From Phorcus lineatus (lineage: Eukaryota; Mollusca; Gastropoda; Trochida; Trochidae), in assembly GCA_921293015.1 (NCBI GenBank), contig OV121082.1, positions 50,426,971 to 50,490,970 of the forward strand: 64,000 nucleotides of DNA, read 5' to 3'. The translations under genes and the position numbers were made by a program. Shown one piece after another: positions 11,691 to 61,988 of the stretch. The notes beneath the pieces are model-generated. The model was given only the letters and a program-made list of their open reading frames with translations, ran no database searches and was not told the DNA's origin. Numbering within the stretch: the stretch's first letter is position 1; every line of letters starts with the position of its first letter.

Positions 11691-11911
11691 CTGTACACAA
11701 GTCTCTTTTTTAAGAAAAGGTCATGGTGAAAAAGACTGTACACAAATCTCTTTTTTAAGAAAAGGTCATGGTGAAAAATACTGTACACAAGTCTCTTTTT
11801 TAAGAAAAGGTCATGGTGAAAAAGACTGTACACAAGTCTCTTTTTTAAGAAAAGGTCATGGTGAAAAAGACTGTACACAAGTCTCTTTTTTAAGAAAAGG
11901 ACATGGTGAAG
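11691..11911. repeat. 45-bp minisatellite, 5 copies, open in both strands
   Basis: Units begin with CTGTACACAA at 11,691, 11,736, 11,781, 11,826 and 11,871, exactly 45 bp apart, and are nearly identical. Because 45 is divisible by three and the unit lacks stops in one frame of each strand, long open frames appear on both strands. They are a by-product of the repeat rather than evidence for a gene. Confidence 0.95.
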
Positions 11912-12973: not shown

Positions 12974-13399
12974 AAAAATAACATAGTTTGTAGATCTACT
13001 CCTCAAAATAACACAGTTTTTTTTATCAACTCCTCAAAATAAAACAGTTTGTAAATCTACTCCTCAAAATAACACAGTTTGTTAATCTACGCCTTAAAAT
13101 AACACAGTTTGTTAATCTATTCCTCAAAATAACACAGTTTTTTTATCAACTCCTGAAAATAACAGTTTGTCAATCTACTCCTAAAAATAACACAGTTTGT
13201 TTATCAGCTCATCAAAATATTACAGTTTGTAGATCTACTCCTCAAAATAACACACTTTTTTATCAACTCCGCAAAATAACACAGTTTGTCAATTTACTCC
13301 TCAAAATAAAACAGTTTGTAAATCTACTCCTCAAAATAAAACAGTTTGTAAATCTACTCCTCAAAACAACACAGTTTGTTATTCTACTCCTCAAAATAC
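12974..13399. repeat. about 30-bp minisatellite, about 14 copies
   Basis: Degenerate tandem copies of a unit close to CTCCTCAAAATAACACAG plus a T-rich/TAATCTA part repeat about every 30 bp across the block. Copies vary by point changes and one- or two-base length differences, so the array is older or less homogenised than the 45-bp array at 11.7 kb. Confidence 0.9.
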
Positions 13400-25800: not shown

Positions 25801-28800
25801 TTTGGTATCTATGACATTTCTGTGTTAAATGGTCTGGGGACAAATTTTTAATTCATTCACATAAGATCTATATAGGCCCATGATCTCTGACATTAGCAAT
25901 TACATCATTTTACACTAACATTCTGTCCCTAAAAAAACATAACTACAACATAATGATGTCAAAACAGAAAGAAGGAAAAGGAGCCTAAAATAAATGGTAT
26001 TTATAGACGATGATTTTGAAAAGGTTGTGATTTGTGCTGGAATAAATCAAAGATAATAACATCATAAGCTGCAGCCTGTGCTAAACTAGTTTCCTTTATA
26101 TGCCAGAAAGATGATCTGCTATCACTGCCCGACCCTGAGGAGGCTGCGGAGACACTACGGGAGTGTCTGGAGCAAGCTATGCAGGTCCTAAGGGACAAGG
26201 GGCAGTTCGGCAGGAAGACCATAGACTTCTACAAGTGGTCAAGTGAGTGGCATTGCATACCAGGGTTAGATACTTAGGTATCATGAAACATTTGAGCTAA
26301 ACTCGTTTCTTTTAAGGTCAGCGTTTGTTTTTGCTTGTGCATTTAAATCACCTTCATTTCTTTATATAAGAACGACATTTTCATCTTCCTGGCTACGAGT
26401 TTAAAAGGGAATTCGACTTAAACTGAAAATAGCATTGGCTGAGCAAAAACTGTCCTCGGAAAAATTTTGACTACCGAGCTCATTTATCTAAGTATATGTT
26501 TTGTTTTGCTTACATTTACATCTTTTGTAATAAATCCAGGTGGTTTTTGTATTGCTCCCTATCAAACTTTTAGCATTCATTCAAATGCATATTGGTCAAG
26601 ATTAATTCAACAATGGCAGCATAACTAAATCCCATAAATTTGTTGTTGTTACATATTTGGTCTTCACTTCATCTATAAAATGAAGATAGTGACTTATATA
26701 CTTGTATAAGTTCTGATTTATATTTGAAATGCTTATGTTTAAGTGTGTGCAAAGGAGGTAGAGACTGGGTTTGGTGGTTGCAAGGCACCAGGGGATGAAT
26801 TGCTATGTTTCATGAAGGAAAAGAATGAAAATGATGATCATGATACCGGCTTTTCTCATCTCAACACAATAATCACTCGCTACTTTGAAAACAACAACTG
26901 CTTCGGAAACGTTGTGACGATTTATCGTGGGAAGAAATCTCTCAATTACATGAGAAAACTCTGTGATACATTTCTCATCCATGTTATCCGACTGATTGAC
27001 CGAAATCTAGACAAGCAGCAGTTTTACTTGTCAGATCATCTCTCGGAGACTTCAGACCTCATTCAGCATCTGCAACATCAGAAACACCTCCTCAAGTTCT
27101 ATGTAAGTCCAGACAACCAGGAACTGGAGCTTAAGATCAAGGATGCAGTTGAGAACCCGAATTACAAGCGGACATTGGTCATTTGCGGGGATGAAGGCTG
27201 TGGGAGAAGTGCCTTTGCTGCCCATGTTGCTGAGTGTTCTGTGAATTGGGATCCCTCAACAAACACTGTCATCAGATTTATAGGACGGTCTCTGAAGACG
27301 TCTACTCTCTTCCATACACTCATCAGTGTCTGCAAGCAGATTGCCTTCCTGTATGACCAGATTACGAGAATTCCTACCCAGGCAACTCTGGTCGACATCA
27401 TCAGGATCTTCAGAAAGCTGCTGAAAGGTGCATCAGAAGAGGTGGATACAGGTCCCTTAGTGATAATTCTAGATGGCCTTGAGAATGTTTCTGATTTCGA
27501 ACCGCATCATGTGTGGGGGCTGTTGGATGATCTCCCTTTGAGGATTTCTCTTATTTTGACAGTGGAAAGGCAACATCCTCATCTTAAATTACTGAAGGGG
27601 AGCCCTCTAGGTGCAACATACTTCACTATGATGAGTTTGGCTGGAGACGACAGGATGAGTATCATATGTGATATTTTGAAATCTCAGGACAGAAAACTGA
27701 CGGAAGATCAGGTGAATTTAATTGCAAAGCAGTTAAATCACGAGGAGATGCCCCTCACAATCACAGCAACTGCTGCAATAGCAACACACTGGCCATCTCA
27801 CACACTGCCTAATCTATGTGCCCTTGAAACTCCAGTAGAAGCCTTTGAACAATTGATCATTGACATTGAAACTAGTGTTGGTGTCGCATTCACTAAGTAT
27901 GCTCTCTCATTTCTTGCTCTTTCCAGATATGGACTTGGTGACTCAGAATTGTTTCATTTGCTTTTGTCAGAAACTGAACTGCTTAATGAGTTGCAGCAAG
28001 AAAATGAGGACCTCAGTGTTTTGGAGGGGTACCCTTATCAATCACAATTGTGCAAATTTCTGTTGTGGATGAAGCCTGTTATTGATGAAAGGAAAATGGA
28101 AGGAGAATCCCTTTTTGTGATAAGACACAATTCTCTAAAAACTGCAATTAAAAAGCGTTATTTGCAGCCCGAGTTTTCCATAGGCATCCATAAGCAGTTG
28201 GCTTCCTTCTTCCAGTACACACGGTCAGGCGTTCTGCTCACTGCCAAAGAAATAACAGAAGGAGTTGGCTACACACTAGTGAGTCAGAACTGGAGAAATC
28301 TCAGATCAATTCCTTATCACCTCTGTCACTCAAGCGATGACATTCCAGGAATAATGAAAGTGTTGAAAGAAACTGTTCTCCTGAACATGTCATGGGTTAT
28401 CAACGAAATCTACTCTGGATATCTGAATGATTTTCTGCTGGATATGAAATACATCATTGGATGTCTCCAACTAGACGAGGATGTATTTTTGGTGAGGAGA
28501 TTGCTGCTTCTCCTCCGGCCTGTGATAGAAGAGAGTCCATCATCATTGGCGAGCATTGTGTCCCAGTTTCCGGCCCATCACTCCAACCAATTCAACAACT
28601 TCATTGAGCAAGCAAAGGCCTGGATGAAGCAGGTCCACAGCACTATCCTCATTCCTTCTCCATCCAGCGGGTTCTTCAGTGGATCATTCTTCTATGGTAA
28701 TGTTACCAAAGATTCGGAATTCTTCCTTACAAGCAGCGATGGACTTTATCTCGCTTCCTTTTCAAAGGGAAAATGTGAAGCCATTGAACTTGGCACAGGT

Positions 28801-31800
28801 GAATGTCTTGCTTCAATCGATGCTACCCTACAGAAGCCCCATGTGTGGGGTAAATACAATCTGACTGGAATCATGGACAACGCTCTCAAAACCTGGGATA
28901 TACTTGGAGGAAAGCTGTTGAGAAAAGTTCCTCTTGGCATCAATAGGATAACTTGGATGAATGTATTCCAAGATGGCACTGTTTTCTTTGCTTCTGACAA
29001 TCAAATAAAGCGAATGCAAGCTGTCACTGGAACTCCAGCTGTTGTCATCAAAGCGCCACAACAAATCAGGGATGCTGGCATGTCACAGAGAACAATGCCA
29101 ACTATTGCAACACTGCACATACAAACAGAATGGTGTGTAAGGATTTGGGAAACGACTGATCCACAAAACTCTCAATCTATTCCACTAGAAGAGAAACCTT
29201 TTTCCACACATTGTAGTCCGTTCCATATGACCAATGATGGCAAATATGCCGTGGTCCTATATGAGAGAGAGGCAGTGGTGCTGGCAATCCTTGACATCGA
29301 TGTTGAATGCACACTAGGTGTTGACAATGAAGTACTCAACGTTGTAACCTTCACAAGGAGTCACGACCATGTCTTCCTTGCATCAGAGTCAGGAAAGATT
29401 AAAGGATATCTCATGAATTCAGGCACAGATTTATTCACATCCTCTGTGTTTGAAAAAGGAGCCAAGAAATCAAAGAAATCGACTCGTTTGATCTCTGCCA
29501 TGACTACTTCTGAAGACGACCATTTCCTTGTCGTAGGGATGACAACAGGGATGGTGATTGTGATCAATATTCCATCTGGGCAGAGGATTCAGTACATCAC
29601 TTCCCACACAGACCCGATCACTCAGGTATACTACATGACAGATCAGATTCACTTCCAACATCTCATTACTCTGGATAAACAGGGAACAGCCAAGCTATGG
29701 AACCTGCAGAATATATTAAGATTGGCAAGGGAAAAACTCTTTGAGCTAATGTGGGATGAGGATCTAGTAAAGGAAGAATCTGAGAAGATTGACCTGGCTT
29801 CGTACTACAAACTTTATGAAAAGAAAGGCAAAAGTAAAATGTTTCTCAATGGTCCTGATGTATCCGCGTTTTACAATAAGACTGATGTGAATCTATTTAC
29901 TTCTGGGCAGTTCACAAATTCAGGGGGAACAAGCTGGGAGCAGTCAGGGAAGCTGCAGGACTGTCGCCAGGTGACTGCAACATGTGCAGCAGTGGGTCGA
30001 GGTGACATCTTCATCACCTACTCGGACGAGAACAAGCTGGCCTGGTGGGATGTGAGGAGAGAGACCTTGTTATCAGTCCGCAGTGTGGCGCCAGGGGGGA
30101 AGTTCTTCAGACTCAGGTCTGTCTTCTATGACCAGGCAGCTTGTCTGATCACGAAGGACAGTGCCGACAGGGAGACTATTTCAGTGAGTTCGGTTTTAAT
30201 GTGTAAGTTTTCTCTATTTAAGGTTATCTGAAATTATGAATATGCATATAATGTTTTCTTAATGGAAGTGGTCATATATCATCAATAGATTCTTAAAATC
30301 CCTTTTAATTGGTTTTCGAATTCTACATACTTTACCATTCAACCTAAGGGTATATCTTTTAGCTGTTAGGATGTAGTATTTCTTAAGGAGAAAAGTTGAA
30401 ATGAGAAATACTTACGTGTGACCAAAAACAGTGGCTCATTAAAATTACATTAAGCCTGGTAAGCAAAATAGAAAATCATCTTAAAGTTATTTTACAAGTA
30501 TTTAAATAAAATAAAAAGAATAAGTATATGATTTCCGGTGAGATACCGGGATCTATCATTGAAAATAAATTGTGCTATTAGTCACTAGCGACTGATAACA
30601 ACAATGACCTCACGTCATCAAACAATGATCCGAGGTAATGACACGCTCATAACGTCGTGCTGTTGGTTAGGTGACAGGATCTTTCAGGGACCGACTCATG
30701 GTAAATGCGCTTCATAAAATAGGCGTAAATGATTAAATCATAAAAAAATAGAAAATTTTCTTTTCTTGACAAATGCCATGTTCATCTCATCTCGTCAGGT
30801 AGAAAAGTAATATATTATCACTCATGGCTGCGCCATTCATGATGATATAAAGTTTCTACTTCACTCGATGAGATAAACATTGTATTTGTCAAGAAAAGAA
30901 AATATCCTCTACATATTTCAGGTGGTGTATGGCTCAGGGAAGAATAAGAAGTTCATTCAAAGAGAGAAGGTTTTGCGTTGTGATACCAGTGCTGACTTGA
31001 AGAAGATGGCAACTGTGACTGTTTCTAGACAAGGTGAGTGCTATATTTTAAAGTCTTTTTATGTACTTTCAATGAAATCCCTGGGTAAGAAATGTGTATA
31101 AAAATTAATACCTGTTTAAAACAAGCTTATGACAATTGACTTAATGAGTCAAATCTTCTAAGAATTCACTGACAATCAAATTCTGGTGACACATGAGCAA
31201 ATCCTTCCCTAAAGATAGCAATGAACAGTGCTGCCATGTGAGTCCTATTGCTTTCTAACCTCTACCTTTACCAAAACCATTTCTTGTCAGGTTTCAAACT
31301 GACCACTATCGACATCAGCAGCGAGCAAGAACAGCGCTACTACCTCCATCTTGGGACCATGGCAGGAACATTGTCCGTGGACAAGGCTCGGGTCACGCTG
31401 TCCAGAGATCTGACAACTGTGCTTGGCTTCCTCAAGGTATGGATTACCCAGTCATTTCTCTGCTGCAACTAATGATTACAGCCTTAAATCTTTAAAGCTG
31501 TAATTTTTGGTCCACAGAAACAAATGTTTGTGATTTGATATTACATTTATTCTGACTGAGTTTCAATCATACAGAGGTGATATCAAAGTATTAATTTAAA
31601 ATTAATATTCAAGATATAGCACTGATGTATGGCCTACAACTTTACCAAGAGATAACAGTTATGCCCTTTGTTTTCTTGTAATACACTTTTGTCCCAAATG
31701 CTTGATAAGTCTTAACTTAACCAAAGTTGAATGGCCTCCAGGTAGAGGACAGAACTCTGATTATCTGCTGGAACGTTGATGACAAAGAAGGCAGCAACAA

Positions 31801-32921
31801 CCCTAGCCAGCAGGGTACGCCGGCAGTAGGCGGGGGAGCACCACAAGCTCCTCGGGTCTGGAGTGCTGCCTCCTCCAGTGCTGACAGCGTCCAAGGAGAA
31901 GTCAGAACCTTCACCAACATGAAGGATCTCAACATCAAGATTACCAAGTCTCGCTTCTACAACAACCAGGAGGTTCTTCTCGGCAACAGAGAAGGTGACA
32001 TTTACATTCTGGACACCTCCAACCTGAAGATCACCAAAATGTTCACCAGGGAGGGGATTATGGCCTGCAAAGGGATGAATCAATCCCATGCTAAACCTCA
32101 CAGAGCCTCTATCAGAAGCATGTACTTCACGCCGGACTACGAGCACCTGCTAACGCTTGATGCCACTAAGATCTCTGTGTGGAACATGAGGAGGAAGATT
32201 CTGGTGTACGCTCCTGCAGCTGGGGATAAGGTATGTGTCTTGGTAGGAATTAGCGACGTCTACACTCTTAGATATATTAAAATGGAATAATTGTTTTGAA
32301 GGCATATTGAGTTCCTGACATTTTCAACACTGTAATAGGCACGAATATTCAACATAGCTTTGTTCTAGAAGTGTGGTTATGTTTTTTTTATGGCGATAAC
32401 AATCCAATACGACATTTTTTAAGTTGATATTTTCAACTGCTGGCAGAGAAGTTACGAATATGAATAAAAGAATGGTGAAAAACATGGTGTGGTCTATTAT
32501 ACACCTAAAGGTATCAAATATACACAACTCACAGTAACTAAACATTTCAGAGGAAATGGCATTCTTTCTTTTTCATTATCATGATCAAAATTTTCATCGA
32601 CCAAAAAGCATTTAAATCAAATCATTCAATAACATGCATTGTTTGCTTTAGATGGCAAATGCAGTCCTGTCAAAGGAAGGTTGTTTCACGCTGGCAGGGT
32701 TGACGACTGGAATCGTGCGCCTTTGGGCAAACTACCACCGGAAGTTACTTTACTCCTTCCGGATTCCTTCAACTCTTCACCATGTGGCCTTGACCCCTGA
32801 TAATGCAAGGGTTCTCGCCCTTGTTGACGAAAACAGCGGAACACGTGTTGTGGTGTTTGAAACCAAGAATACGGATGATTACATCCTTGACAAGACAGAG
32901 AACGATGCAAAGACAGCCTAA
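22870..32921 (+). CDS. NWD2: NACHT and WD-repeat domain protein, NWD2-like, nine exons
   Basis: Coding exons are 22,870-23,197, 23,684-23,883, 24,453-24,620, 26,107-26,242, 26,744-30,183, 30,922-31,033, 31,291-31,436, 31,742-32,230 and 32,652-32,921. Together they give 5,289 nt, or 1,762 residues plus stop, with all phases compatible; human NWD2 is of similar length. The N-terminal 110 residues are Ser/basic-rich. A DUF4062-type segment follows across exons 1-3, with VRIYLSSTP, CHLVDLRTG, EIEKCRRLSVGPNF and a LLDEYYRLDTN stretch. NACHT is in exon 5, with a P-loop GDEGCGRS (about residues 426-433) and Walker B LVIILDGLENV (about 516). The C-terminal half carries degenerate WD40 blades with endings such as KTWDIL, VRIWETT, AKLWNL, AWWDVR, SVWNMR and VRLWAN. 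NWD proteins are cytosolic STAND-type NTPases with poorly known roles. The Walker A lysine is replaced by arginine. The exact exon 2/3 border (GTG|GTGGGC) is the least certain junction. Confidence 0.88.
24527..25030 (+). repeat. tandem triplication of the 3' half of NWD exon 3
   Basis: The segment starting GTCATCAAG occurs at 24,531 (real exon), 24,699 and 24,863, spaced 168 and 164 bp, and includes exon sequence plus the donor and adjoining intron. Copy 2 has an in-frame stop (AAG TAG) and other damage. Copy 3 stays open for 30 codons (…LLDEYYRLDTNLLPRLYEPA) and ends at a good donor GTGAGT, but a TAG stands directly before it and it lacks the first half of the exon. The extra copies are best read as decayed exon duplications, although copy 3 could still be spliced in from an internal AAGCAG acceptor. 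Confidence 0.85.
25031..26106 (+). other. intron 3 of the NWD gene (3' part)
   Basis: Mostly AT-rich intron. At 25,531-25,746 the minus strand has a 71-codon open frame with protein-like composition (contains KDLVIKVRQGGNHSSVY). I cannot assign it, and it may be a relic of a mobile element. Confidence 0.4.
26744..30183 (+). CDS. NWD2: large NACHT/WD40 exon (exon 5) of the NWD2-like gene
   Basis: This single 3,440-nt exon encodes about residues 278-1,424. It holds the whole NACHT NTPase (P-loop at 27,187-27,210, Walker B near 27,457-27,490), the winged-helix/superhelical linker and most of the WD40 platform from about 28,680 onward. The acceptor TGTTTAAG lies at 26,736-26,743 and the donor TCA|GTGAGT at 30,183/30,184. 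The frame runs past the donor for another 16 codons into the intron. That is ordinary read-through and not the true C-terminus, because three more WD-bearing exons follow in phase. Confidence 0.9.
30755..30903. repeat. 149-bp near-perfect foldback in an NWD intron
   Basis: The arms 30,755-30,805 and 30,853-30,903 are inverted copies (both read ATTTTCTTTTCTTGACAAAT at the outer end). The inner part (TATCACTCATGGC…GCCATTCATGATGATA) also pairs, so the whole unit folds into one hairpin with a tiny loop. Its right end is 18 bp from the start of exon 6. It has the structure of a MITE-like foldback and no coding content. Confidence 0.85.
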
Positions 32922-35354: not shown

Positions 35355-35652
35355 AAAAGGAATGAGTCCGATTATATTGGACGGGCTACCTCCAGACGCC
35401 TATTCACGGGTGCGATCCCACTACTGCGCGACACGGGGACTTTTGCCTGCTGCATTTCTGCCCTGGGCCGGTGCGTCCCTCCTTAGTCAACCTGGTGGCA
35501 TCAGACTCCTCCAATGTCACCATATTGATGCCGGGCTTAGCGCGGACATCCGATCGACATAGCACGCCTGAAGGCAGAACCCCCGTCCTCAAACCGTTCC
35601 CAAACCAGGCTTCCAAGTAGCAGGATTACAGGAGCACGCCACAACTCCCAGC
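35355..35652 (-). ncRNA. RN7SL: 7SL RNA (signal recognition particle RNA)
   Basis: Read on the minus strand, the 298-nt block aligns by eye along the whole metazoan 7SL RNA. The 5' Alu-domain start is GCTGGGAGTTGTGGCG with CTGTAATCC. The S-domain follows with ATGTCCGCGCTAAGCCCGGC and ATCAATATGG, then the SRP54-binding helix 8 region (CACCAGGTTGACTAAGGAGG and ACCGGCCCAGGGC), a GNRA loop in GCAGAAATGC followed by AGCAGG, and the 3' Alu partner strand with AGTAGTGGGATCGC and GTGAATAGGCG. The 3' end runs into CCTTTT, a Pol III terminator (complement at 35,355-35,360). A TATA-like TAAATAAAAG sits about 25-35 nt upstream of the 5' end. The block is strikingly GC-rich against its surroundings. SRP RNA scaffolds the particle that targets secretory ribosomes to the ER. 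Length and all domains look intact, so I take it as a real gene rather than a pseudogene. Confidence 0.95.
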
Positions 35653-48600: not shown

Positions 48601-51600
48601 GAGCTGGGACAGGAGCTGGTGGAGGAACTGAGGAAGGTGCTTGAACTCCTGCAGGCAAACCTGATGCCTGAGATGCTGGATCAGGAGGCGGTTGATATAA
48701 AGAAGGTTTTACAGGTGTAAAGGAGGGTGAAACTATGGTTGTCACCTTTGAGGGTGATGTATTTGAGCCAGCAACAGAAAACCGACTTGGTGGAAATATT
48801 TTGGTAGCTTCCTCTCCAAATGATGATGAAGCTGTACCCTGTCCTTGTGAGTAACTTGCTACAAGGCCAGTTGCAGATGTAGCTGTGTTTAAATCTGGTA
48901 TAACATCCACAGCTGTAACTGGTATTGATGGTATTGGAACAGTTGTCATTGTTGGAGCGGAGGATGTTGATGCATCTGATTTTGCAGATCCTTGCTTTTC
49001 AATCTGTTTGACACGTGTTGAATAATCTGCTAAGCTTATTTTCTTTTTCTTTTCTTTAGCTTCAGCTTTCTTCTGTTCCATTTGCTCTTGAACTTGTTTC
49101 ACTACACTATTACCCATCTGATCTTCACAAGTGATAGCAGTTTCATCTTGAGAGGTGGGTCCCCACAGCTGTTCTACAGTTTTAATCATTGATTTCATTT
49201 CAGGACTGATTGTCTTCAGATCTGGTTTCATTAGTCCACCTTCACCTAACCCAAACACTCCCGGAATATTGACATGATGTCGCTGTCTTGGATCACCCTG
49301 GGCAAACATCCTAGGATCAATAGCACCTGACCTTGGATCATTCTGCAATATGCGAGGGTCATTTTGAGCAAGTCTTGGGTCATTCTGCATTACCCTGGGA
49401 TCACTTTGCATTAATCGAGGATCATTTTGCATTAATCGAGGATCATTTTGCATCAATCTAGGATCATGTGGCTGAACACCTTGCATAAGACGAGGATCAG
49501 AAGAACCTTCCATCTTTTCTATACTATTCCTCTTTCTAGCAATGCGAGGATCCTCCCTCCCAGATGGAATCTTATAAGCAGTTGCAGCTCCTGGCATCAG
49601 AGGAGGCATCATGGGAACTTGAGGCTGAGTGTCTGGTCTGTTGAAGCCAGGACCTCCTTCATAGCTGCTTCTCCTGGGGACGCCTGCTCCTTCGCCACGA
49701 CTCTTCCACTGACTGGACTTCCTGCTGTACTCGGGCCCTGTGGTCTTGCTACCGTACGATCCCCGAGAATATTGTCCATATGAGGATGCTGATGCTGATC
49801 CAGCAGTCTCCTTCTTTTCATACTGGAGCAGGGCATAAGGCAGGCAGTGCCGAGGTCTTTCTGATGGAAGGGCTTCATCTGTGTACTCATAGAGGTAGAT
49901 CTGGAAGACAAGGCAGCTGTTTAAGGCAACTATCATTTTATTTGCTGATTAACATATATTTCAGTCAGAACTACTAATGAGAGAAAATTTAAAAGATTCT
50001 ATTTCATTATGGTGATATGGTAACATAAAACTGTGAATACTGCTACATCATTATTCTAAATTGGCAATTGCTTTCTGATTTCTTTGTAAATTTGTTTGCC
50101 CTAGCTTGCTGAAGACAAACTTAAAATTAACAAAAATATGTTCCATGACTGGAGATGCTAACCTGAGACCTTTGAAGCTGCATGGGATGAGGAGTGTTAG
50201 TCTGAGCAGCGACCACAGACACATGGGAGTCATAATTGGGTGTCGGCTCTACTGCGACTTCATGTGGACCGGTGAACTGCTGTGCCTTGCATCGCCCTTG
50301 TGTGATCTGCAACAGTTACGTTAAATTTTTACTCAACTTTACATCTATAGGCATCGGTGTATCTGGCAAGCACAACATGTTTGATCATGCATTAGAAGCT
50401 TGGTTAAGGACTAATACAACTTTAATAAAACACAGTGAAGTCCTACTTATTTTACTCACTTCTGTCAACCGAGTTTTGATAAATGCAGATTCAAATGAGG
50501 AAATCTCTTGATCAACTATGTGTATAGATGAAGATTAAATGTCTTGAAATTGAATTTGTGGGTAAATCTTCAATACATCCCAAACGAGTACAATTCAAGT
50601 CCAACTTCATATTACACCACAGAAGTCTCGAATCAATTCCATACACATTTTGTAAAAATTCAAAACCAAAAATTTGAAAACACTGCAATATCTAAAAAAA
50701 CATTGTTTCATGAACAATATTACAGTCTACTACAATTCCTGAATTGGTTTGATAGGTAACTCAATAAATAAGCTTATAAAAATAGTAGTTCATTAAGTTT
50801 TCCATATCCAATAGCCAAAAGTTTAAGTTCAAAGCCAAAATTCATAAACCTTAGTCTTCATGTGACAAAGATGTTATTCTGGATTTGAGGTCTGATTTAG
50901 GACCAAAATTACAAACTTTGAAATTTGAGCTGTTGTGGTGCAGCAGTTTTGAATGAGAAAATGTGGAAGTTAAAAGACGACAGATGGCGTATGGGCGGTA
51001 GCCGATTCAATAAACCCCGCCATCCTCATATACTTGTGGAGCTCATTGAAAGAAGAAGAAAAAAGAAATGACATTACCTTGAAGACAAATATACAAGCTG
51101 TCTTCTCCTCCTTTTGTTCTGCAATCTTGATCTGAACATCCGGGTGTTTACATACGTACACTCCACTCTTGCTGTCTCCTGAAAACAGGATTTGTAATTT
51201 GAAAAACATTTCAAATGAAAATACCATTTCTGTAGTCTATGTCTAAGAAGAAACCATGATAACAAGACAGTCATAGATGAAAGCTTCCTTCTCCAATCTC
51301 ATTGAAATTAGAGTACCTATCATTAATTAATTCCTATCTGCGTTTTTAGGTCTGAGTACAGCTGTATAAAGGTAGTGTCTTGTCTTCATTCAAGCCAATC
51401 AGGAACAGGCCCATCAGCACAATTTCATATCTTAGCTGGCTTCTAATGGTTTGATGTTATGGAAGTTTAAAGGTTAAAGACATGGCCATCCATATGGGAT
51501 AGAAGACTAGAACACTGTGAGGTATGAGTGCTAAGTTTTATCCAATTTAATGAGGTTGTGTCCTCTCTGATCTGCACTAACGTGTGTGCAGGATAAAAGC

Positions 51601-54600
51601 TCATACTTCAGAACAGAATGAGGTATGTATGAGACACATGGCTAATTTATTGAAAGGCTGAAAAAATTGGATCGAGTGAAATTTTCCATCCAATGGACAT
51701 GAAATTTGCATATCCAAGAGTGTGCCACCTCTCTGTTAAAAGAGGATGATATTTAACCTGATGAAATATAAGGTTACCAAGGTTTTTTTCTTTTCTTTAA
51801 GCCTATCACAATCTTTTCAATCATGTTATCAACATAGTAATATCTATCATGCTAATTAACTTTGTATTTCAGAAATTTGTCTTTGCTTAAAAATCATTCC
51901 CATTGTTTACTGTTGTGATTCCTGTTAATTGGATAATCAATTGGTTTGTTGGTTAAAGATTCAGCAGCTATAAATTGATTGTTGTCTATTGGACATAAAT
52001 GAAATTGATAACAATTTTATTCTATATAACTTTTTCTGGTTTTTTCTATGAACATTTTTAAGTTTTTTTAACTGGATCTAAAGTTTAGAACATCAGTTGA
52101 CGATAATCTGAAGGTTAACCATTGGTTGAACACTCAAAGGTAAAGTTCTAATGTAGCATAACTTGAAAACTGGAGTTATCTCCCTTTACCATGTAGGTGG
52201 CACTTGTCATGTGTAAACAATGTCTATAAATAGGTCAGTTAGCTGCCTACACCACCATAACACACCTCTACAGGATTTTATATCTAAGCCTCTGTGTCCA
52301 GGTGGACAAATTGGGTCAATGTAGGGGAAAGGTAATTGCCTCTTTCTATTTATCTTAGTGACATGCATGATATTGTAGTAGAAAGGTGTGCTGCTAGATA
52401 AGTGCAGTGCCCCTTTACAGAACAAAACAAAATGAAACCTGTTTTGATATTTTTCTCTTAATTATAAACTCTGTATACGTAGTTATATACATTGAAAATT
52501 GAACATTCAGCTGAAATACAGAGCAGTTGTCTAGATTGGAAATCATATGAATACTATTAATTGGACAATCTGTTAACCAGTCTACAGTTGTGGTGTGGAG
52601 CATTCATGATGTAAGAGCCTTATAGATTTATACAAGGTAGGTCGTAGCCGTTGCACTCCATGTGGTTTTTATACAGCTATAGCCAACAAAATCAAATTTC
52701 ACGTCTTCACAAGTAACAACAGATTATTATTCTCTCTGTATTCTTACAATGTGACCACTAACCCTTGACCAGTAGTAATATTTAAAGACATTGATTTTCC
52801 TGGATTATTTATTTTTCATACAGTTTTGATTCCTGAAAATATAAACTCACATGGGTTGAGTAGTAATCAGTTTTTGTGTCACTGATATTCATTAGACTGA
52901 CCAATGCCATAAACCCACGCCCCGATTCTCATCATAAAACAGACTGTGTGAATAGAAGAAATAGAGAAATTGAATGCATAACCCTAACCCTGATTCTCAT
53001 CATAAAATAGCTTATGTGAATAGAAGAAGCACAACCCCAAGAAATAAAAGTTATGCAAGGTTGCGACAGAAAATTAAAGTGTATTTCGCAAAATGTTTAT
53101 CACAAAAAGACACAAACTTCAGGAGTCAACATTTGTAAATTAAATGCTCTGATGCACATAGAAATGCATAACAAGTCGTGATATGACCTGCATTCCTCAA
53201 ATATTCACTGAACCATAGCTAGTAAACATCGATAAAACAGAAGTTTAAATAGGAGATCGACTGCTGAGTTTTCCATAGCATTTCTCACATATTCTGGGCC
53301 AACTATAGAAAGTTCAACCAGGCAATGGCAGAGCTGGTAAGCTAAGAGGCTACGGTTTGATAAGACAACAGAAGAGTAAGAAAACTAAACGGGGGAAAAG
53401 TTCCATCAGGAAATAGTAAAACTGGTAAGAACACAGATGTTTTGGGAAGGGTCTTAGGTTTTATTTGGCAATAAAAGAGTTGGTAGGCTAATGGGCTAGG
53501 TTTCAACAGGTAGGTATGCTAAAGAGCTACCTAGGGCATCAGGCACTGGTAAAGTTGACATAAATTGCAACTACACTTTGAAAACTATCTAGCTAGCTCA
53601 TGATATCTTAAATGTTTTTTACTTCAACTTCCAAAATGAAAAAATTCAATCAAATATGGTAATAAAATCATGTTTCGGCAGCAACCACTTTTCAACTGTT
53701 TTATTACAACTGTAAACTGTCTTGCTTACCAGTTACAGAACACTGTTCAAGATTAAAGCAGTAAAATCAACAAAGTTAACTGCTACATCCAAAAAAACTA
53801 CAGTAGAATTAAAAACTTTTAACTAATTAACCAGTGGTAGTTCATTGATTATCAATCATGTTGGGTGATTACTTATGTCAAAACTTTCCCCATTTGCCAT
53901 AACAGGTAAGGACTTGACTGAGAATGGGAGATTTTGACTGCGGAGACTGTGGAGACTGCGGAGACTGTGGAGATTGCAACTGTAACTGTTGTGATGAGTG
54001 TTGCAGCGGCAGCAACAACAATGGGTGCTGTGACGGAGTATCGTGTAGTTTCTGTGCTGGATGCTGTTTAGCAGAAACAACTCTCTCTGCAGCTGAAGAT
54101 ATCGACCATGCCTCAAATCAAAGAAAACGAGAAGATGAGAGACAGGTGAATGGTGGGCCTCCACCTCCAGTTACAGCCCAACCTGGTGTGGACCCGAGTG
54201 TCATCACCCTCCAACCTCAGGGTGATCCACCATCTTACGAGGCAGCCATGCAAGAGAATACTTAGCAACGGACATGAAGAGTTGCAATAATAAAAGGTAA
54301 ATGTCTGTGATTTGCCTGGCGCTGCTTCAGGTAAAAAGTCTTGGAGTGATTTAATCAGAAAAAGATTTGTGAAGTGATTACTTATGGATTACTTCTACAG
54401 CCTTGCGAAGTTGGGGATGAAGTCGCACTCAATACTGCGACAGTGTTATACCTAAGGCACCACAAGAAACAAGACTCTGACAAGACTTTCCTATTTTTGT
54501 TTATCAGACCGTAGACAATGTCTTACATAAGATTTCTGTATATTCAACAACCAAACAATATGAAAACAACAAATTTCTCTTAACATATTTACAACCTATG

Positions 54601-57600
54601 AACATCTAACTAAATTACAAAACAAATCAACTACTTTGAGAACTATAAATTATACATATAAGAAATTGAAACTGATGCTTTGACAGCAAGCCCATTTTTT
54701 ATTCCACAGACACTGCTGTCATGCAGTGTTGGAATGGTATTTTCAGGTAAAATCATTGTTTGTGACATAAATAAGTACATAATCTTGAACAAAAGTACAA
54801 TTAGTATGAGACCTCTTTATCAATAAACAGTCAGCAGTGATTTATAGCCAATTCATATGTCAATTTAGAAACAGTCAATGATTATCCCCCTGGTATAGTT
54901 CTAATAGCAGCTGAAGTTTTTCTGATGATGTTTTTCTATAGGGGCAGGGATATTTTTTATTGTCATTGTTTATATTGTTAGATGACTACCTGACTATGTT
55001 CTCATTTTCTGAAGCATTTTTTTCTTGATAATGATTTGATATGAATTACCGGTACACGTGTTCACATTCACATTTGCCTAAATGATATTAATATCATATA
55101 TATTTTCAGCTCTATTTAGGTGCTTAAAAAATAGATTTTGAAGTCGAGCAAACATATCAACAAAACTTTGTGCAAAATTTTTTGTGTATTTTCTCACGTG
55201 CCTTATTTCATATTTTAAAAGACATTCTAGATCTGATTTGAAATTTCATTCATTTGATAATTGGTTTTATATATTCTTTATTGATATTGCTTTGTTTTGA
55301 TAAAAGACTGTGATTTTATGTGATAAAGATGTTTTCAAACTAAAATTTTAGCCCTTTTAATTTTCAAATAAATGATGAACAAACAACTCGCATTATCTTT
55401 TTTACTTATTTGTCACTGATTAAAGTACTTGCATCGTCAGCTGACAAATCAATTACACAGGACATTGAACTAATTTAGAAAATAATTGATCATTCATAGA
55501 CAGAAAAAAACTTAGATAATGAATCAAATATTATACAGACCCTTTCTGTAAATGAATAAAACAAATAAAGTACATATGAATTATGATACACTTGATAAAG
55601 AGAGAGAAAGTTTATTCGGGTGATTTTTTACAAGTGATATATTTCTTAAGTGTTGAAGGGGGAGGACTCTATACACACTGGAACCTCTGGACCTGACACT
55701 GGATCTAGACAATCTTTGAGGGTTGAAACTTTCCACCCCGTTTCTTTTCTTAAAGTGACCCAGTTAAAGAGAGGCTTTAGGAAGCCCTTTACTTGGAGAC
55801 AGCTATAACTGTCACTATCTATTGTGTCTGATTCACTTGACCAGGATATACAATACTCTCCCAGGTAGCATAACCTGATAGGTGGTTATTGCACATTAGG
55901 AAGGGGAGTTCCTAGAAAGTTCCTGTTTCAAGGATAATAGCACATTTACAGAGTGCCTAGTGTTGATACGGTGCACAAGGTTAGGACATCACAGGTAATT
56001 GAATGTATGTATGTTAAAGCTATCAAAGTCTTTCAAAAGTAATATTATCTGCACGTGAACATGTATTTAGATCCTACTGTTGATACAATGTACAAGAGAG
56101 GATATCATAGGAGACTCGATGAATGTATGTAAAGAACAATATGACTAACTGCATAACTGTGACCTGGTTTAACATGGCTAGAGGAAACCTTATAGTTTGG
56201 GATCGCTATGCCTGACCAACTCTGCGTCTGCTTCACTAAACTAGGATTTATGTTAGTGGTAATGTCGGTGGTTATTGCGACATTGGGATTTCCCTGTCAG
56301 TTCTGAGAAAGTTTCATTTGAGGATAGCTGCACATTGCCTAGATAAAATTAAATACAATCTGAAATTTTTTCCATGTGTGTAAACATATTTTATCAAAGG
56401 GGCCATAAATTTGGTTATGAAAGTGAGGACTAAATGAGAAATTCAAAGTACGTATTAGGTTTTACATTAATAAAAGAAATATCTTGTCTTTTCAACCTAT
56501 AAAAATTCCACCTCTGACTTATATCATTTATTTCTTACCATATCTCTATATTCGAACTGTCGCTTAGCAACAGTCAATGTTTATCGTGAATTCATGCCTG
56601 TAACTGTCATTATAGAAGTCAGTATCAATATATCTGTTCAGAAAACATTATGACCTACTATCTTGAAAGTTAGTATGGTTTAAGATATTGAGGACAATAT
56701 AAGTGATGCTATATATTTGTAAATATTTCACTTTCCATAAAAAAAAATATCCTGTGTCATGTGTCATCAAACAAGCTATGTACAAGAAGAACAACGGACC
56801 AAATATGTGTCCCTTAACTACAAGTTTATGAAAATTCTTTTGATAAGTCTTTTGATGAGGGAAATTCCTTGATAACATGAATCCTGATATCCACATTTTG
56901 TCAACTTTGAGGAAAACTCCTAAACATAATCATTCTTGAGAAGTTCTTAATGAAAGGATGAGCTAAAATGATCCCCCCCCCCCTCCCCACACACACACAC
57001 ACAATCCCCTCCCCCACCTCACCCCCATCCCTTTCCCTTTTACATTGTATGCTTCAATCAAGCAGGGCCTAATGTTCTGCTACCGGGGTCAGACATCACC
57101 CTTGGTAATTTGTTCATGGAAATTTGTACTAAACTACCCGCTTTGAGTCTATTAATGATAAAATAATTCGATGAAACATTTTGATATTAGAAGATAAAAA
57201 TATATATTTAGTAATGCAGATTTAGTTCTTGCTCGTGAACTTCAATTCAAATTGTGATTTGAAAAGTTTGAGTTAAAGGCTAAAATTGCAATTCAGTATC
57301 TTTAAGTTTACACAAGAGCAAAGTGTGTTGTAAAAATCTTTTGAGAGGCATGCAGGTTGAGCAGATGTAGCTGTTTGATTGGCTTACTCAAATCAAGCAC
57401 GGGTATTTATTTAGTGCCCCGATTATTAAAGCGTAGAACATTAGAACATTTAACACTGCGTTGCTGAGCATGTTTATCCTTCAACTCAAAGCGATTAATA
57501 TTATTTTCTTTTTTAGAAACTCCATAAACAAAATGTCTGACTTGTCCTGTGACTGTGACTGCGGAGACTGTGATTGTGACTGCACGGATACAAACTGTTG

Positions 57601-60600
57601 TTGCTGTTGTTTCTGCTGTGACAATGACCCAAGTGGAGGCCAAAACTGTTGTAACAACGTCAACTGCAACTTCTGTTGTAGCTGGTGTTGGTCTGAAACC
57701 GCTGTCGACACAGCCACAGACATAGATAATGTTTTAGGGAGCAAGAAAGCGAGAAGAAAGAGAGTTGAAGAGGAAATAAGGAGAAGGAAAGAGAGGAGAG
57801 CTGAAATGGAAATGGAGCAGATTCATGAACAACAGTTATCTCCCCAGTCTCCTAGCAACGAGCCTGTGATGACCCAGCCTGGTGTAGACCCAAATGTCAT
57901 AACTCTCCAGCCAAGAGGTGAACCACCTTCCTATGAGGCTGCCACTCAGGGCGAGATCAGTTCGAAAATGGAATCTGCATCTGATTGAGCAATGTGACTG
58001 GGATCATTCCAAAAAAGAACATCTATTCTGCCAGAAGATGAACTCACTCTGAATGATGCTTAACAATAAGATCATTTTCTCCATGTTTCAAAACACAGGA
58101 GGTAAAAAAAGTGATCAATGTTTCTTGTCAACATCATAGATGGAATAGAACACAACATAATGCCTCATCAAAACAATGTCATATATTGTGAATCTAGTAT
58201 CCCCTCTTCAACAGGAAGACAGGGGTTCCTGGTCATGTCATACAAAAAGACGTTAACAGATGGGAGTTGTTGCTTCCTTGCTTGACACTCAGCATTATCA
58301 GCACTTTAATTGGGGCTTCACTGTGTAGCTACCAAGCGCAAAATGAACAAATTGAATTTGCTATGTACATTGTATTGAGGACAACAACAAAAAATTGTTT
58401 CTATTATATCATGTGATTTGCTCAATGATTATGATCAAATTGATTATAAGGAACTTATTGCTATAAATCAACAATCAATATTCCCAAATAATGGGTACAA
58501 TTAAGCTGTATTTCAATTAGAGAGGAAATCTGACGTATTTATCTATACGTCTCTGTTCTGTTTAATGGCAGTGATACTGGTTAAACCCTTAAAATGTTTG
58601 ATGAACATTGACTGTCAAACATTGAATGAATGTATAGAACAATTTGTCAGTGTTTCTAAGGGGAACATAAGTTTTAGATCCATTCGTGCATCTGTCTGTG
58701 AGTCTGTCTGAGTTACAGGGGGCAGCTTTTCTAAGTGACCATTAAAGATATGATGACCAAATTTGGTGTGCACATGGTTTCAAGGTAACAATGATTTAAA
58801 AGATGACAAGCAGACAGAGTCAGCTATATCCCCGCCAAAGGGAAAGGGTAGTTAAGGATACTAGTTGTGGAATACTGAACAGTGATCATGTTGTTTTTCT
58901 ACAAACAACCTTTAAGAAATCATGATGTTGTAGTGACTTGTTATTACCAATTTTAAATATTGGTGATGCATTTTTGTGGTACATTTAACCCGACTGTCCT
59001 GCATATTATTGTATTTGAACAGTCACAAGTATCTTAGAAAAATAAATACAAGAAGTTGAAAACCCCAAAAGGCACATCTACGCATGATGCCCGTTGCACA
59101 TACCAAGTTTCGTCGAGCTAGGTCTCACCGTTTTGGAGTTGTGCTCCGGAAACATTAACGGGTAAAAATGATAATGCAAAGAAGTTGAAAACCCCAAAAG
59201 GCACATCTACGCATGATGCCCGTTGCACATACCAAGTTTCGTCGAGCTAGGTCTCACAGTTTTGGAGTTGTGCTCCGGAAACGAAATCCTATGTTACGTT
59301 TCCATGGAAACGGGTAAAAATAAAAATGCAAAGAAGTTGAAAACCCCAAAAGGCACATCTCTGCATGATGCCCGTTGCACATACCAAGTTTCGTCGAGTT
59401 AGGTCTCACAGTTTTGGACTTGTGCTCCGGAAACATTATCGGGACGGAGAGACGAACGGACGGACAGAGCCCATTTCAATATCCTCCGCCAACTACGTTG
59501 GGCGGGGGATAATAAACATGCACTTTAGGGTATCTTCAAAAGGGCAACTTTTCAAAGAAATCAATACCTTGATGGATTCTTTTAAATGTTAAGCACAAAT
59601 ACCCTCTTCAGAGTAATTGACCTTGTTTTGTTTATTTTTTTGTCTCTTTCGCTGAACTGGTAGAGTGTCTGACTCTCACCCAGAGTTCCTGGGTTCAACT
59701 CCCACAGGAGGTGGTCTAACAATCACCTATGTTACATTATTACTCTGTTTTAGAACATTCAGGAAAATGTTGCGATATATATGAAGACCAACTTTGACCG
59801 AATATGTTGATGACTATGTCCTATTGTTTTTACTTAGAGTATTTCAGTGATGAACTTATTCCTTTGTCTTTGTAGATCCATCTTACTGGAGCTAACCAAG
59901 TTTTATCATTTAACACATCAAAATATTTTGTTTGAAGATCAAGACAATGAGGAAACATTTCTAAAAAATACCTATCTACTTCTCTTATGCCATATCCTTT
60001 CACTAAACAATTGTACATGAGTTGAGTTTCTATAGACACCATGTATTATCATGTAGGCTGACTTTATCTTTTTACAACATAAATCTATTGAATCAAAATA
60101 ACACCCCGTTGGAATTTTTTACATTTGCTTAGCTCACATCCATATTCAGTAATTATAGATCAACGCCAACAAATCGTCACGCAATGTTTTACAACTCTAT
60201 CCAATTGATAATGTTGAACAACACCAAAATTGGTTTCATACCCATCACCTTTACCCCCTTCTCTACAAGAGATCAATACTAGTCGGTGCACTTTCTGTTA
60301 AGTCATGTCAGCATTTTCTTCCAAACATGTATCTATATGCACAAGGCCAATAAACAGCAATGTTAAGGATCAAATGTTCAATATAAAACCTTCGAGGATT
60401 GATTCATACAATATCTCTTTGATTTCCTCATTTGAACCTGGCACAGAAACCCCAAAACTTTAAAACGATATAAATCAATAGAATCAAATATCTAACCAGA
60501 AAATATTCTATGGTTTGGAGAGTAAGCCAAATAATGACCTGATTCATATGCCTTAACCGCTCAGAAGCTGATCATTATTAACCCAATGGTGTTCAGGGTA

Positions 60601-61988
60601 ATACCATTTTTTATGAAAGGATTTAGTGGTTGCATCTAATAAGCAAAGCAAATAATAAACCAATACCACTAAAATGTTTCATAGTTCTCATAATAAACAG
60701 AATCAAGATTAATATTTTGAATGAGGACACTATGACAAGATCATGGTTCAATTGTAACATATCATGTCGTTCTAATCCATTCAGAGTGAGAACTCTATCG
60801 GTTTTCATCAGATTCATCAAATCCATGGTTGGCTATTGGTAAAAGCCAAGGGACCTTACACAAATTTCTCATTTCATTGTCATTGAGGCTTGATTAGGTC
60901 TCATGATTTCCATTTTTCAGCTTGTTTAAAGCTGCCCCACAGCTCCTACGCGTATGCGGTTATAATGGTTAACAGAACTTACCCAAACCACTGAAGGAAT
61001 CTGGCTTTGTTCTGAGTCCATTCTTGGCAATACTGGGCACAATGTTGGTTGTATCTCTGATGTACAGGAATCCGAACTGTTCAGTTAATTCTCTTGTATG
61101 TCGACCGTCATCTTTCATCTCTGTTCGCTTTTCCCTGAAAATCAAATCAAACTATGAAATCAATTCCATTTCTGACAAAGATTTTCCCTTTAATCTCATA
61201 CCAGTATAACATATTGGTCTTGTGGCCTCTAAGGATGAAAGGGTTAAATCTAATAATCTATTCTAAATACTTTTTACAAATCCAAGCATGTGTCAATCCA
61301 GAGAACAAATGTAATAAGACTTATGTGTTATTTGAATTGTTTCAACAGGCAACCCTTTTTCATCATATTAGAAATTCTCAGAAGATTGTTCATACAATAT
61401 GATGATAAAAACTTCCTTGCCAAAATAACATACCGATATGCTTTCTCCAGCTCCCGGTTATCAATGGTTTGAATGACCTTGACCTCCCATTGACCCCTGA
61501 ACTCTTGGTCAAGGTAACATCGATCAATCGTTTGAAGCAATTCGGTTGCATCTCTGCTGTTTAAGCTCACACTCCGCAAATTGTCTGCAAAGATACAATG
61601 ATAACTTGTACTACACCTCATTACTAATACATTATTTACCTTATGAAAAATATTTTGATTTACCTTATCAGTTGAATGATGCATGAATGATTGGACCAAA
61701 TGTCATTTATGTGAAAAATTATTTATTTCAAAACAGATTTTCATTTGTTTCTAATTTCCAAAACTCCAGAAATTTTAGCATGAGATTTTATCAGAAGCCT
61801 TTTGAAACTATCACTTACAATAATACAATAAAATTTCTGATTTAAAATGCTTAAAATGTTTAGAATTGATTAAAATCATTTACAGTACATAATCAAAAGT
61901 AAGAGTTATCTCCCTTTAATTTATCACCTTTAGACAATTGCCTCTTTATCTTTGGTATGTTGAAGTTTAGCTGTGACTGTTCAGACAT
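39616..61988 (-). CDS. TASOR/TEX15-family (DUF3715 pseudo-PARP) giant protein, nine coding exons
   Basis: Coding exons in transcript order are 61,988-61,928, 61,584-61,434, 61,134-60,983, 51,178-51,078, 50,306-50,163, 49,900-46,859, 46,603-45,980, 45,672-39,844 and 39,633-39,616. All have GT/AG borders and matching phases; the total of 10,122 nt gives 3,373 residues plus stop. The start is MSEQSQL. Residues about 75-232 fit the DUF3715 pseudo-PARP domain of TASOR, TASOR2 and TEX15: FGFLYIRDTTNIVPSIAKNG, then GVYVCKHPDVQIKI, FVFK, EPTPNYDSHVS, and finally YLYEYTDEALPSERPRHCLP. The remainder is mostly disordered: DPR repeats, RS/RD blocks, a basic KKRRKRKKK segment (exon 7), a long Pro-rich stretch and a helical Lys/Leu-rich tail. 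Vertebrate TASOR scaffolds the HUSH silencing complex and TEX15 acts in germline transposon silencing; a nuclear chromatin role here is inference. Orthology to one or the other is unresolved. Confidence 0.8.
39844..45672 (-). CDS. 5.8-kb exon 8 of the TASOR/TEX15-like gene
   Basis: It encodes about residues 1,426-3,368. It opens with VTNRKCAKCEDIAKILQPYS and continues into Lys/Glu-rich and then Ser/Thr/Pro-rich sequence. A Pro/Gln/Asn-rich block (about 43,650-44,700; repeats like NPNQPPP) and a very long Ser-Arg/Asp-rich block follow (about 41,600-42,900; repeats like SRDSSRNRE, SPERYRRS), then a helical, probably coiled-coil C-terminal part (about 39,850-40,600). The acceptor TATTGCAG lies just above 45,672 and the donor CTG|GTAATA is at 39,844/39,843. 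Without that splice the frame would read 53 further AT-rich codons to a stop at 39,685. Splicing to a five-codon final exon gives a cleaner end, but I cannot decide between them. Confidence 0.85.
45980..46603 (-). CDS. exon 7 of the TASOR/TEX15-like gene (basic NLS-like segment)
   Basis: A 624-nt exon, 208 residues, phase 0 at both ends. The Glu-rich first half is followed by a dense basic block (KKTKKRKV…YKKRRKRKKK), a strong nuclear-localisation candidate. Next comes an acidic Asp-rich stretch with MPPSYVETV, which happens to carry a PPxY motif. The acceptor TTTCCAG is above 46,603 and the donor ATG|GTGAGT at 45,980. Confidence 0.85.
46859..49900 (-). CDS. 3.0-kb exon 6 of the TASOR/TEX15-like gene
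   Basis: It encodes residues about 204-1,217. The first 29 residues finish the DUF3715 domain (YEYTDEALPSERPRHCLP). A Ser/Gly/Tyr-rich linker and an array of DPR(L/V/I)MQ-type repeats follow (about 49,290-49,555), then a Lys-rich helix and a long Pro/Ala/Ser stretch. The last 300 residues include an RS/RD/RY-rich block (about 47,150-47,480). The acceptor GTCTTCCAG precedes 49,900 and the donor CTT|GTAAGT is at 46,859. Confidence 0.87.
52915..53030. repeat. 69-bp direct duplication
   Basis: GATTCTCATCATAAAA…TGTGAATAGAAGAA occurs twice, about 69 bp apart (starting near 52,924 and 52,993), with few differences. Confidence 0.7.
53320..53560. repeat. degenerate tandem repeat upstream of Cys-rich gene A
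   Basis: Several imperfect copies of a unit containing GGCAATAAAAGAGTTGGTAG / GCAGAGCTGGTAAGC followed by GCTAAGAGGCTA-type sequence. Divergence makes copy number unclear. Confidence 0.45.
53924..54265 (+). CDS. small Cys-rich PPxY protein A (113 residues)
   Basis: Single coding exon. The head (residues 1-50) holds 16 cysteines, beginning MGDFDC followed by four GDC repeats encoded by a 9-nt DNA repeat, then CNC, CC and CxxC clusters. A charged linker follows with a DID motif. The tail matches protein B: QPGVDPSVITLQPQGDPPSY, then EAA. PPSY at residues 102-105 is a PPxY motif, the ligand type of WW domains such as those in NEDD4-family ubiquitin ligases. There is no signal peptide or membrane helix; the Cys clusters could be palmitoylated or bind metal (inference). 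A candidate acceptor (ATTTGCCATAACAG) ends 18 nt before the ATG, suggesting an upstream untranslated exon. The gene lies antisense inside intron 3 of the TASOR/TEX15-like gene. AATAAA occurs near 54,288. I know of no named family. Confidence 0.75.
   Translation: MGDFDCGDCGDCGDCGDCNCNCCDECCSGSNNNGCCDGVSCSFCAGCCLAETTLSAAEDIDHASNQRKREDERQVNGGPPPPVTAQPGVDPSVITLQPQGDPPSYEAAMQENT
54266..57460. other. spacer between the two Cys-rich genes
   Basis: AT-rich DNA with no third gene copy seen. At about 55,870-56,345 fragments are repeated in diverged form (GGTGGTTATTGC… twice, GTTGATAC…GAATGTATGTA twice), indicating an old duplicated repeat. A C-rich/CA microsatellite lies near 56,970-57,042. Confidence 0.5.
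56971..57042. repeat. poly-C / (CA)n / CT-rich simple repeat
   Basis: A run of C residues is followed by (AC)n and then CCCCTCCC-type sequence. It is a simple low-complexity tract. Confidence 0.9.
57533..57988 (+). CDS. small Cys-rich PPxY protein B (151 residues)
   Basis: Paralogue of protein A, 3.3 kb downstream on the same strand. The head (residues 1-55) has 19 cysteines: MSDLSCDCDCGDCDCDC, then a run of five consecutive Cys (NCCCCCFCC), CC, NC, FCC and a W-C-W. After SETAVDTATDID (compare AETTLSAAEDID in A) comes a strongly charged Arg/Glu helix of about 35 residues, longer than in A. The shared tail follows: QPGVDPNVITLQP and PPSYEAA (PPSY at about 131-134). The ATG at 57,533 is chosen because it aligns with A and directly follows a good acceptor, TTATTTTCTTTTTTAG, 17 nt upstream; the open frame extends further upstream only through that intron sequence. 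There is no membrane segment. Function unknown; WW-domain binding through PPxY is inference. Confidence 0.78.
   Translation: MSDLSCDCDCGDCDCDCTDTNCCCCCFCCDNDPSGGQNCCNNVNCNFCCSWCWSETAVDTATDIDNVLGSKKARRKRVEEEIRRRKERRAEMEMEQIHEQQLSPQSPSNEPVMTQPGVDPNVITLQPRGEPPSYEAATQGEISSKMESASD
58000..59040. other. 3' flank of Cys-rich gene B
   Basis: AT-rich DNA holding the presumed 3' UTR. At 58,655-58,860 a more GC-rich stretch (CTGTCTGTGAGTCTGTCTGAG… to TATATCCCCGCCAAAGGG) resembles dispersed repeats seen in invertebrate genomes. No further gene. Confidence 0.45.
59041..59518 (+). repeat. dispersed repeat with three internal tandem copies
   Basis: AGAAGTTGAAAACCCC starts at 59,051, 59,180 and 59,332. Each copy continues with AGGCACATCT…GCATGATGCCCGTTGCACAT, AAGTTTCGTCGAG and TGTGCTCCGGAAAC. 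Spacing is 129 and 152 bp because copy 2 carries an extra ATCCTATGTTACGTTTCCATGG-type insert. The block ends with a GACGGACGGAC-type stretch and a palindromic CCGCCAACTACGTTGGGCGG. High identity between copies suggests recent amplification. Confidence 0.85.
59645..59722 (+). repeat. tRNA-like SINE head or tRNA pseudogene
   Basis: GCTGAACTGGTAGAGTG gives an A-box and GGTTCAACTCC a near-perfect B-box at tRNA-like spacing. The acceptor stem does not close, so I do not call a functional tRNA. Confidence 0.5.
59830..60850 (-). other. unresolved coding-like relic
   Basis: Minus-strand frames at 59,830-60,042 (contains KTWLAPVRWIYKDKG) and 60,623-60,826 (contains LNGLERHDMLQLNHD), with a fragment between them (KSFHKKWYYPEHHW near 60,570-60,610), have protein-like composition but are broken by stops and frame changes. 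This may be a decayed mobile element in the intron. I cannot name the family. Confidence 0.3.

Follow-up and report, generated by a model that had tools for sequence, protein, structure and literature searches.

This work concerns a pair of small genes, here called P1 and P2, in a stretch of 64,000 nucleotides from the gastropod Phorcus lineatus (GenBank assembly GCA_921293015.1, contig OV121082.1, positions 50,426,971 to 50,490,970 of the forward strand); this whole stretch is called the window, and positions are counted from its first letter. Each gene encodes a protein with an N-terminal head saturated with cysteine and aspartate, a linker, and a conserved C-terminal tail with a single PPxY motif. 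The explanation that we consider most likely, at a rough probability of 0.45, is that P1 and P2 are membrane-held intracellular adaptors, in which an S-acylated Cys head would anchor the protein and the PPxY motif would recruit NEDD4-type WW-HECT ligases, a role that NDFIP, CYYR1/WBP1L, Comm and PRRG proteins fill by means of anchors of another kind. The parts of the two genes, all on the plus strand, are:

53924..54265 (+), P1 coding sequence including the stop codon, 113 residues, 16 Cys, single PPSY (open reading frame; codon-level comparison with P2)
57533..57988 (+), P2 coding sequence including the stop codon, 151 residues, 19 Cys, single PPSY (open reading frame; codon-level comparison with P1)
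53924..54073 (+), P1 head, residues 1-50, with Asp-Cys-Gly repeats, CC pairs and a C-x-F-C motif
57533..57694 (+), P2 head, residues 1-54, with CDCDCGDCDCDC, CCCCC and a C-x-F-C motif
57695..57838 (+), P2 linker, containing a DID motif and an extended charged stretch, predicted helix
54179..54253 (+), P1 tail QPGVDPSVITLQPQGDPPSYEAAMQ, 21 of 25 residues the same as in P2
57875..57949 (+), P2 tail QPGVDPNVITLQPRGEPPSYEAATQ, from alignment and codon comparison with P1
53904..53905 (+), candidate splice acceptor AG of a P1 5'-untranslated region (5'-UTR) intron, after a pyrimidine-bearing stretch and 18 nt 5' of the ATG (consensus by eye)
57515..57516 (+), candidate splice acceptor AG of a P2 5'-UTR intron, after a pyrimidine-rich tract and 16 nt 5' of the ATG (consensus by eye)

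All Cys residues of P1 fall within residues 1-48 and all those of P2 within residues 1-52, amounting to 33% of the first 48 residues and 35% of the first 54, respectively; the CCCCC run of P2 occupies residues 22-26, and the only PPxY motif of each protein, PPSY, is found near the C-terminus at residue 102 (P1) or 131 (P2). The Cys counts of 16 and 19, the CCCCC run and the gene coordinates given in an earlier, sequence-only reading of this DNA proved exact on recount. A 9-bp unit repeated in tandem (53936-53977) makes up part of the Asp-Cys-Gly head of P1. Between the candidate acceptor AG and the P1 ATG there is an in-frame TGA (53915-53917), and since a putative acceptor precedes both ATGs, P1 and P2 may share a 5'-UTR intron adjoining the coding exon.

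The two tails have the common consensus QPGVDPxVITLQPxGxPPSYEAAxQ and align with a score of 116 (shuffled mean 21.5); the alignment of the heads scores 142 (shuffled mean 83.7, standard deviation 10.3); neither score was reached in any of 2000 shuffles, which bears out the proposal of the sequence-only reading that the genes are paralogous. Similarity between the linkers is weak (score 39, shuffled mean 24.0, reached by 14 of 2000 shuffles), and the DID motif is common to both. A blastn comparison of 51901-55500 with 55501-59600 yielded a single strong match, located in the tail and 72 bp long (E 2.6e-11); for all the others, one of them a noncoding match of 22 bp, the E value was no better than 0.004.

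At the codon level, 113 codons could be aligned between P1 and P2, with 25 identical, 35 differing synonymously and 53 nonsynonymously. The YN00 estimates of nonsynonymous (dN) and synonymous (dS) divergence over the whole gene are 0.48 and 1.99, and the NG86 dS was not computable in any of four partitions, from which it follows that synonymous change between the two genes is saturated. In the 25 codons of the tail, nine are identical, 12 show synonymous and four residue-changing differences (NG86 dN 0.094), and the differences at codon positions 1, 2 and 3 number 1, 3 and 15, pointing to purifying selection, in keeping with the strong conservation of the tail noticed earlier. Equal synonymous and nonsynonymous change, which that reading had named as evidence against itself, is not what the tail displays in this comparison between the two paralogues. 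In the 49 codons of the head the corresponding differences number 17, 20 and 30 (dN 0.49), and the head alignment contains 14 Cys-Cys columns (of the 16 Cys in P1 and 19 in P2), nine of which differ in the Cys codon. The P1/P2 head thus evolves faster than the tail, yet is not free of constraint. Two earlier statements have to be given up here: the heads, which were described as alike in composition and not in exact sequence, do align, and the tail is not the only selected part, since the head aligns above its composition and has kept its 14 Cys columns despite the nine codon changes. Taken together, the codon patterns, the shuffle tests and the kept Cys columns argue that head and tail are both under selection, which is strongest on the tail, and that the duplication is old.

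Judged from their sequences, P1 and P2 are intact paralogues and a genuine gene pair. That they are non-functional frames, arisen by chance or decaying within an intron, is very improbable; it is true that the genes are known here from sequence alone, that the P1 head contains the 9-bp tandem repeat and that both frames are intronic, but both frames are intact, and synonymous change is saturated with tail and head conserved.

The intron in question belongs to a TASOR-like gene on the opposite strand, and its position is defined by splice sites and an in-phase join:

51179..60982 (-), TASOR-like intron of 9,804 bp, holding P1 and P2 on the opposite strand
60983..61134 (-), TASOR-like exon upstream of this intron, DUF3715 profile positions 1-37
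51078..51178 (-), TASOR-like exon downstream of this intron, DUF3715 profile positions 44-81

P1 and P2 are therefore nested, as had been said of them, both lying between two minus-strand TASOR-like exons. The exons 61134-60983 and 51178-51078 (-) join in phase at SGL-G-DSKSG (…FSGLGDSKSGVYV…). Single exon pieces match DUF3715 weakly (E 0.008 and 0.00014); with the pieces joined to a further upstream exon the match reaches 41.7 bits (cut-off 28.5, E 1.5e-10), and the joined exons match PDB entry 6tl1 (Protein TASOR) with an E value of 2.3e-8. TASOR-like proteins are reported to occur throughout metazoa (PMC10578480), and the nesting of P1 and P2 in such an intron alone tells nothing about their function. 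The TASOR-like gene itself (HUSH complex relative, involved in animal gene silencing) occupies 39685-61583 (-) of the window, and the 9.8-kb intron interrupts its DUF3715; several long open stretches (2015, 216 and 1051 residues) are placed in it by strand and position only and matched nothing in Pfam at E 0.01. A second, weak DUF3715 match elsewhere in the genome (locus L009, C11:10106656-10106808 (-), 24.7 bits, cut-off 28.5, E 0.011) is perhaps another TASOR-like gene.

Relatives of P1 and P2 were sought in Pfam, PDB sequences, viral and prokaryote contigs, and the Phorcus genome itself. In Pfam no family matched P1 or P2 at E values up to 10 (HMMER filters on; P1 without its first Met). 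No match to the P1 head was found among PDB sequences; the single match of P2, fermitin at E 7.5, is not credible, and three pentatricopeptide chains matched by the tail (best whole-chain E 3.7e-6) were dismissed because this value adds up eight repeats, each worth 2.5 bits (i-E 3.7e3), over a stretch of 13 residues. Patterns derived from the head, not from the tail, fitted 600 stretches in viral and 266 in prokaryote contigs, none of which was confirmed. A literature search returned no paper with 'PPSYEAA', nor one combining 'PPSY', 'cysteine-rich domain' and 'WW domain', which is weak evidence of absence.

The own-genome searches covered the 958-Mb assembly in 74 contigs, and only the best candidates were scored, so that the copy number of two is a lower bound: with P1, P2 and the tail as queries there are at least two convincing copies, P1 and P2 themselves. 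The tail query returned exactly these two; the P2 query returned four matches, one of them foreign (E 5.07, two stops), and no further copy; and the P1 query returned eight, five of them foreign (E 0.77 to 7.5); four of these five have in-frame stops, and the fifth, locus L019, is open but unlike P1. The pattern D-C-x-D-C-x-D-C occurs at 15 places in the genome (7 forward and 8 reverse, versus 4 and 9 in the reversed control), three of which are in P1, and no frame longer than 104 residues or with more than eight Cys was found at the 11 loci inspected. Thus P1 and P2 appear to match no family searched, and the earlier statement that they belong to no known family holds for Pfam and PDB sequences; the claim of novelty is limited to this comparison.

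Neither protein seems to possess a signal peptide or a transmembrane helix. The best 19-residue Kyte-Doolittle mean, on a simple scale only, is 1.27 for P1 and 0.45 for P2, so no stretch appears hydrophobic enough to span a membrane. AlphaFold2 (AF2) models of both sequences have low confidence (mean pLDDT 52.9 and 56.4); in both a long helix starts at the V-x-C-x-F-C motif (residues 41-74 in P1 and 45-102 in P2), with low confidence there; higher pLDDT values, 72-88, occur only in P2, in its charged helix (residues 71-100).

By eye, the head resembles the Cys/Asp-rich end of MDFI and MDFIC, which in MDFIC is reported to be S-acylated (PMC12626003, PMC10531961). Homology to these proteins was tried with PDB letters under two nulls and rejected, the similarity not rising above composition: under the full and the Cys-fixed null, respectively, the score was reached by 610 and 1097 of 2000 shuffles for P1-MDFI, 374 and 540 for P1-MDFIC, 749 and 1121 for P2-MDFI, and 1055 and 1472 for P2-MDFIC. 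The same kind of test, there with a different gap penalty, readily detects the relation between the P1 and P2 heads. No I-mfa domain (PF15316) match to P1 or P2 was found in Pfam, and a search for MDFI in the Phorcus genome gave nothing over the cut-off of 27, with one match of 17.5 bits at another place.

The main rival explanation, a serious though doubtful one, takes the head as a metal-binding module, metallothionein-like with Asp-Cys mixed S/O ligands, whose level or place as a buffer would be tuned by the PPxY tail via NEDD4-type ligases. The C-x-C, CC and D-C spacing and the Cys share of the heads agree with such a role, and human MT2A (the sole reference) compares slightly better with the P1 head than MDFI or MDFIC do (z 1.09/1.37), but this similarity is not above composition either, being reached by 308 and 208 of 2000 shuffles for P1 and by 579 and 500 for P2. 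No metallothionein family matched P1 or P2 in Pfam, and neither aromatic residues interspersed with the Cys (F43 of P1; F27, F47, W51 and W53 of P2) nor a helix such as that predicted at the C-x-F-C motif is known to be typical of metallothioneins. From the CC pairs beside aromatic residues at the helix start we infer that S-acylation is to be favoured over metal binding.

In form, the G-x-PPSYEAA element of the tail is like two extended PY motifs given in PMC5578492, GLPSYDEAL in Comm and GLPSYEQAV in PRRG4. PPxY adaptors are described as recruiting, and being able to release, NEDD4-type ligases (PMC12720080). CYYR1, a Cys-rich member of the STMC6 family, reportedly draws WWP1 to late endosomes through PPxY (PMC11399591); TMEM127 and SUSD6 are single-PPxY adaptors, the former binding WWP2 without activation alone and working together with SUSD6 (PMC12720080). 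Counted exon by exon, profile matches in the Phorcus genome at E 0.001 or better number 23 for WW, 64 for HECT and 27 for DHHC. At C16:29.988-29.999 Mb four WW matches are followed in order by six HECT matches, and the region C1:57.999-58.008 Mb has three WW and two HECT matches; the two clusters look like NEDD4-type genes, and the WW/NEDD4-type partners suggested in the sequence-only reading accordingly have candidates in the same genome.

Some PPxY proteins are adaptors, but others are themselves substrates (PMC11399591), and P1 and P2 might be substrates of NEDD4-type ligases in which a PPxY degron keeps a Cys-rich protein short-lived. The many lysines of P2 would suit this; P1 has only one, and conservation extends well past PPxY to QPGVDPxVITLQP, beyond the needs of a degron, which makes the substrate role unlikely. 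It is improbable that the tail is a scaffold for another WW protein (YAP, WWOX or similar) with no part in ubiquitination: genes with WW matches outnumber those with HECT clusters, and the STMC6 members VOPP1 and WBP1 have been linked with WWOX, but PPSYEAA is similar to the extended PY motifs found in Comm and PRRG4, though that similarity does not separate WW classes.

We propose that P1 and P2 are an anciently duplicated pair of small cytoplasmic adaptor proteins. The N-terminal head would be S-acylated and so hold the protein on a membrane, its C-terminal part, V-x-C-x-F-C...C-x-E-T, forming the start of a helix. The single extended PY motif G-x-PPSYEAA would bind the WW domains of NEDD4-type HECT ligases, which would be brought to the membrane or relieved of autoinhibition, leading to ubiquitination of nearby cargo, and the second conserved element, QPGVDPxVITLQP, would offer cargo or ligase another place to dock. 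Several points weigh against the adaptor proposal: expression, acylation, WW binding and the adaptor role itself are all things that we infer; each protein has one PPxY, and in the report on TMEM127 cited above a single PY did not suffice for activation of WWP2; the Asp-Cys repeats fit metal binding equally well as acylation; the AF2 models are of low confidence; the acylation of MDFIC is an analogy, given that head similarity to MDFI and MDFIC is not above composition; and PPxY can also mark substrates or bind WW proteins other than NEDD4 types.

If the adaptor proposal is right, PPxY ligase recruitment would be built on a Cys cluster in place of a transmembrane helix, the resulting adaptor could be switched, and the tail motif QPGVDPxVITLQP would need explanation. 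A bolder version, which we consider quite unlikely, is that P1 and P2 represent a class of metazoan NEDD4-ligase adaptors, perhaps lineage-restricted, without a transmembrane helix, in which the acylation state of 16-19 clustered, reversibly acylated Cys switches recruitment and the head is convergent with the acylated end of MDFIC. If the head binds metal instead, a metal buffer controlled by a ligase would be of similar interest. The pair is also a clear example of a head with biased composition that is under selection.

Elsewhere in the window are a full-length metazoan match to the signal recognition particle (7SL) RNA at 35356-35652 (-) (263.8 bits) and an NWD1-like gene with NACHT and WD repeats at 26743-32921 (+) (HTH_NWD1 31 bits, cut-off 27; NACHT below its own cut-off). 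A tRNA-like match at 59642-59713 (+) (33.8 bits, gathering 29), not called by ARAGORN, lies near tandem units at 59050-59434 and is perhaps a tRNA-derived short interspersed nuclear element. Minisatellite arrays at 8205-8903, 11685-11910 and 12975-13398 have units of 96, 45 and 30 bp, and in those of 45 and 30 bp one frame stays open, for 182 and 138 residues.

Among known systems, metallothioneins resemble the P1/P2 heads in Cys density and in C-x-C and CC spacing; P1 and P2 differ in having Asp and not Lys beside Cys, aromatic residues, and the conserved PPxY tail. MDFI, MDFIC and MDFIC2 (I-mfa) also have a Cys/Asp-saturated segment, S-acylated in MDFIC, with a CCCCC run and a C-rich helix, but there it is C-terminal, whereas the P1/P2 head is N-terminal, and the P1/P2 tail is not seen in MDFI proteins. 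Commissureless and PRRG1-4 share the extended PY motif, P-S-Y-[DE] with Ala two or three residues on; unlike P1 and P2, they are single-pass membrane proteins with a Gla domain in PRRG, possibly in Comm, and have no Cys-saturated head. In NDFIP1/2, TMEM127 and SUSD6 the ligase is recruited, and perhaps released, by a PPxY held at the membrane (PMC12720080), as proposed here for P1 and P2, but these proteins are transmembrane and no sequence relation to P1 or P2 was found. The STMC6 proteins (CYYR1, WBP1, WBP1L, VOPP1, TMEM92; Shisa-like) differ in possessing a transmembrane helix, and CYYR1 has a signal peptide and three PPxY where P1 and P2 have one each; a PPxY-bearing, presumably cytoplasmic tail is present in P1 and P2 too, and no profile match to the family was found in Pfam. 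By the tests made, P1 and P2 are not STMC6 members, yet they resemble STMC6 and NDFIP in features: like the STMC6 proteins they have a Cys-rich N-terminal part followed by a PPxY tail, and the role described for that family, recruiter of NEDD4-type ligases (PMC11399591, PMC5578492), is the one proposed for P1 and P2.

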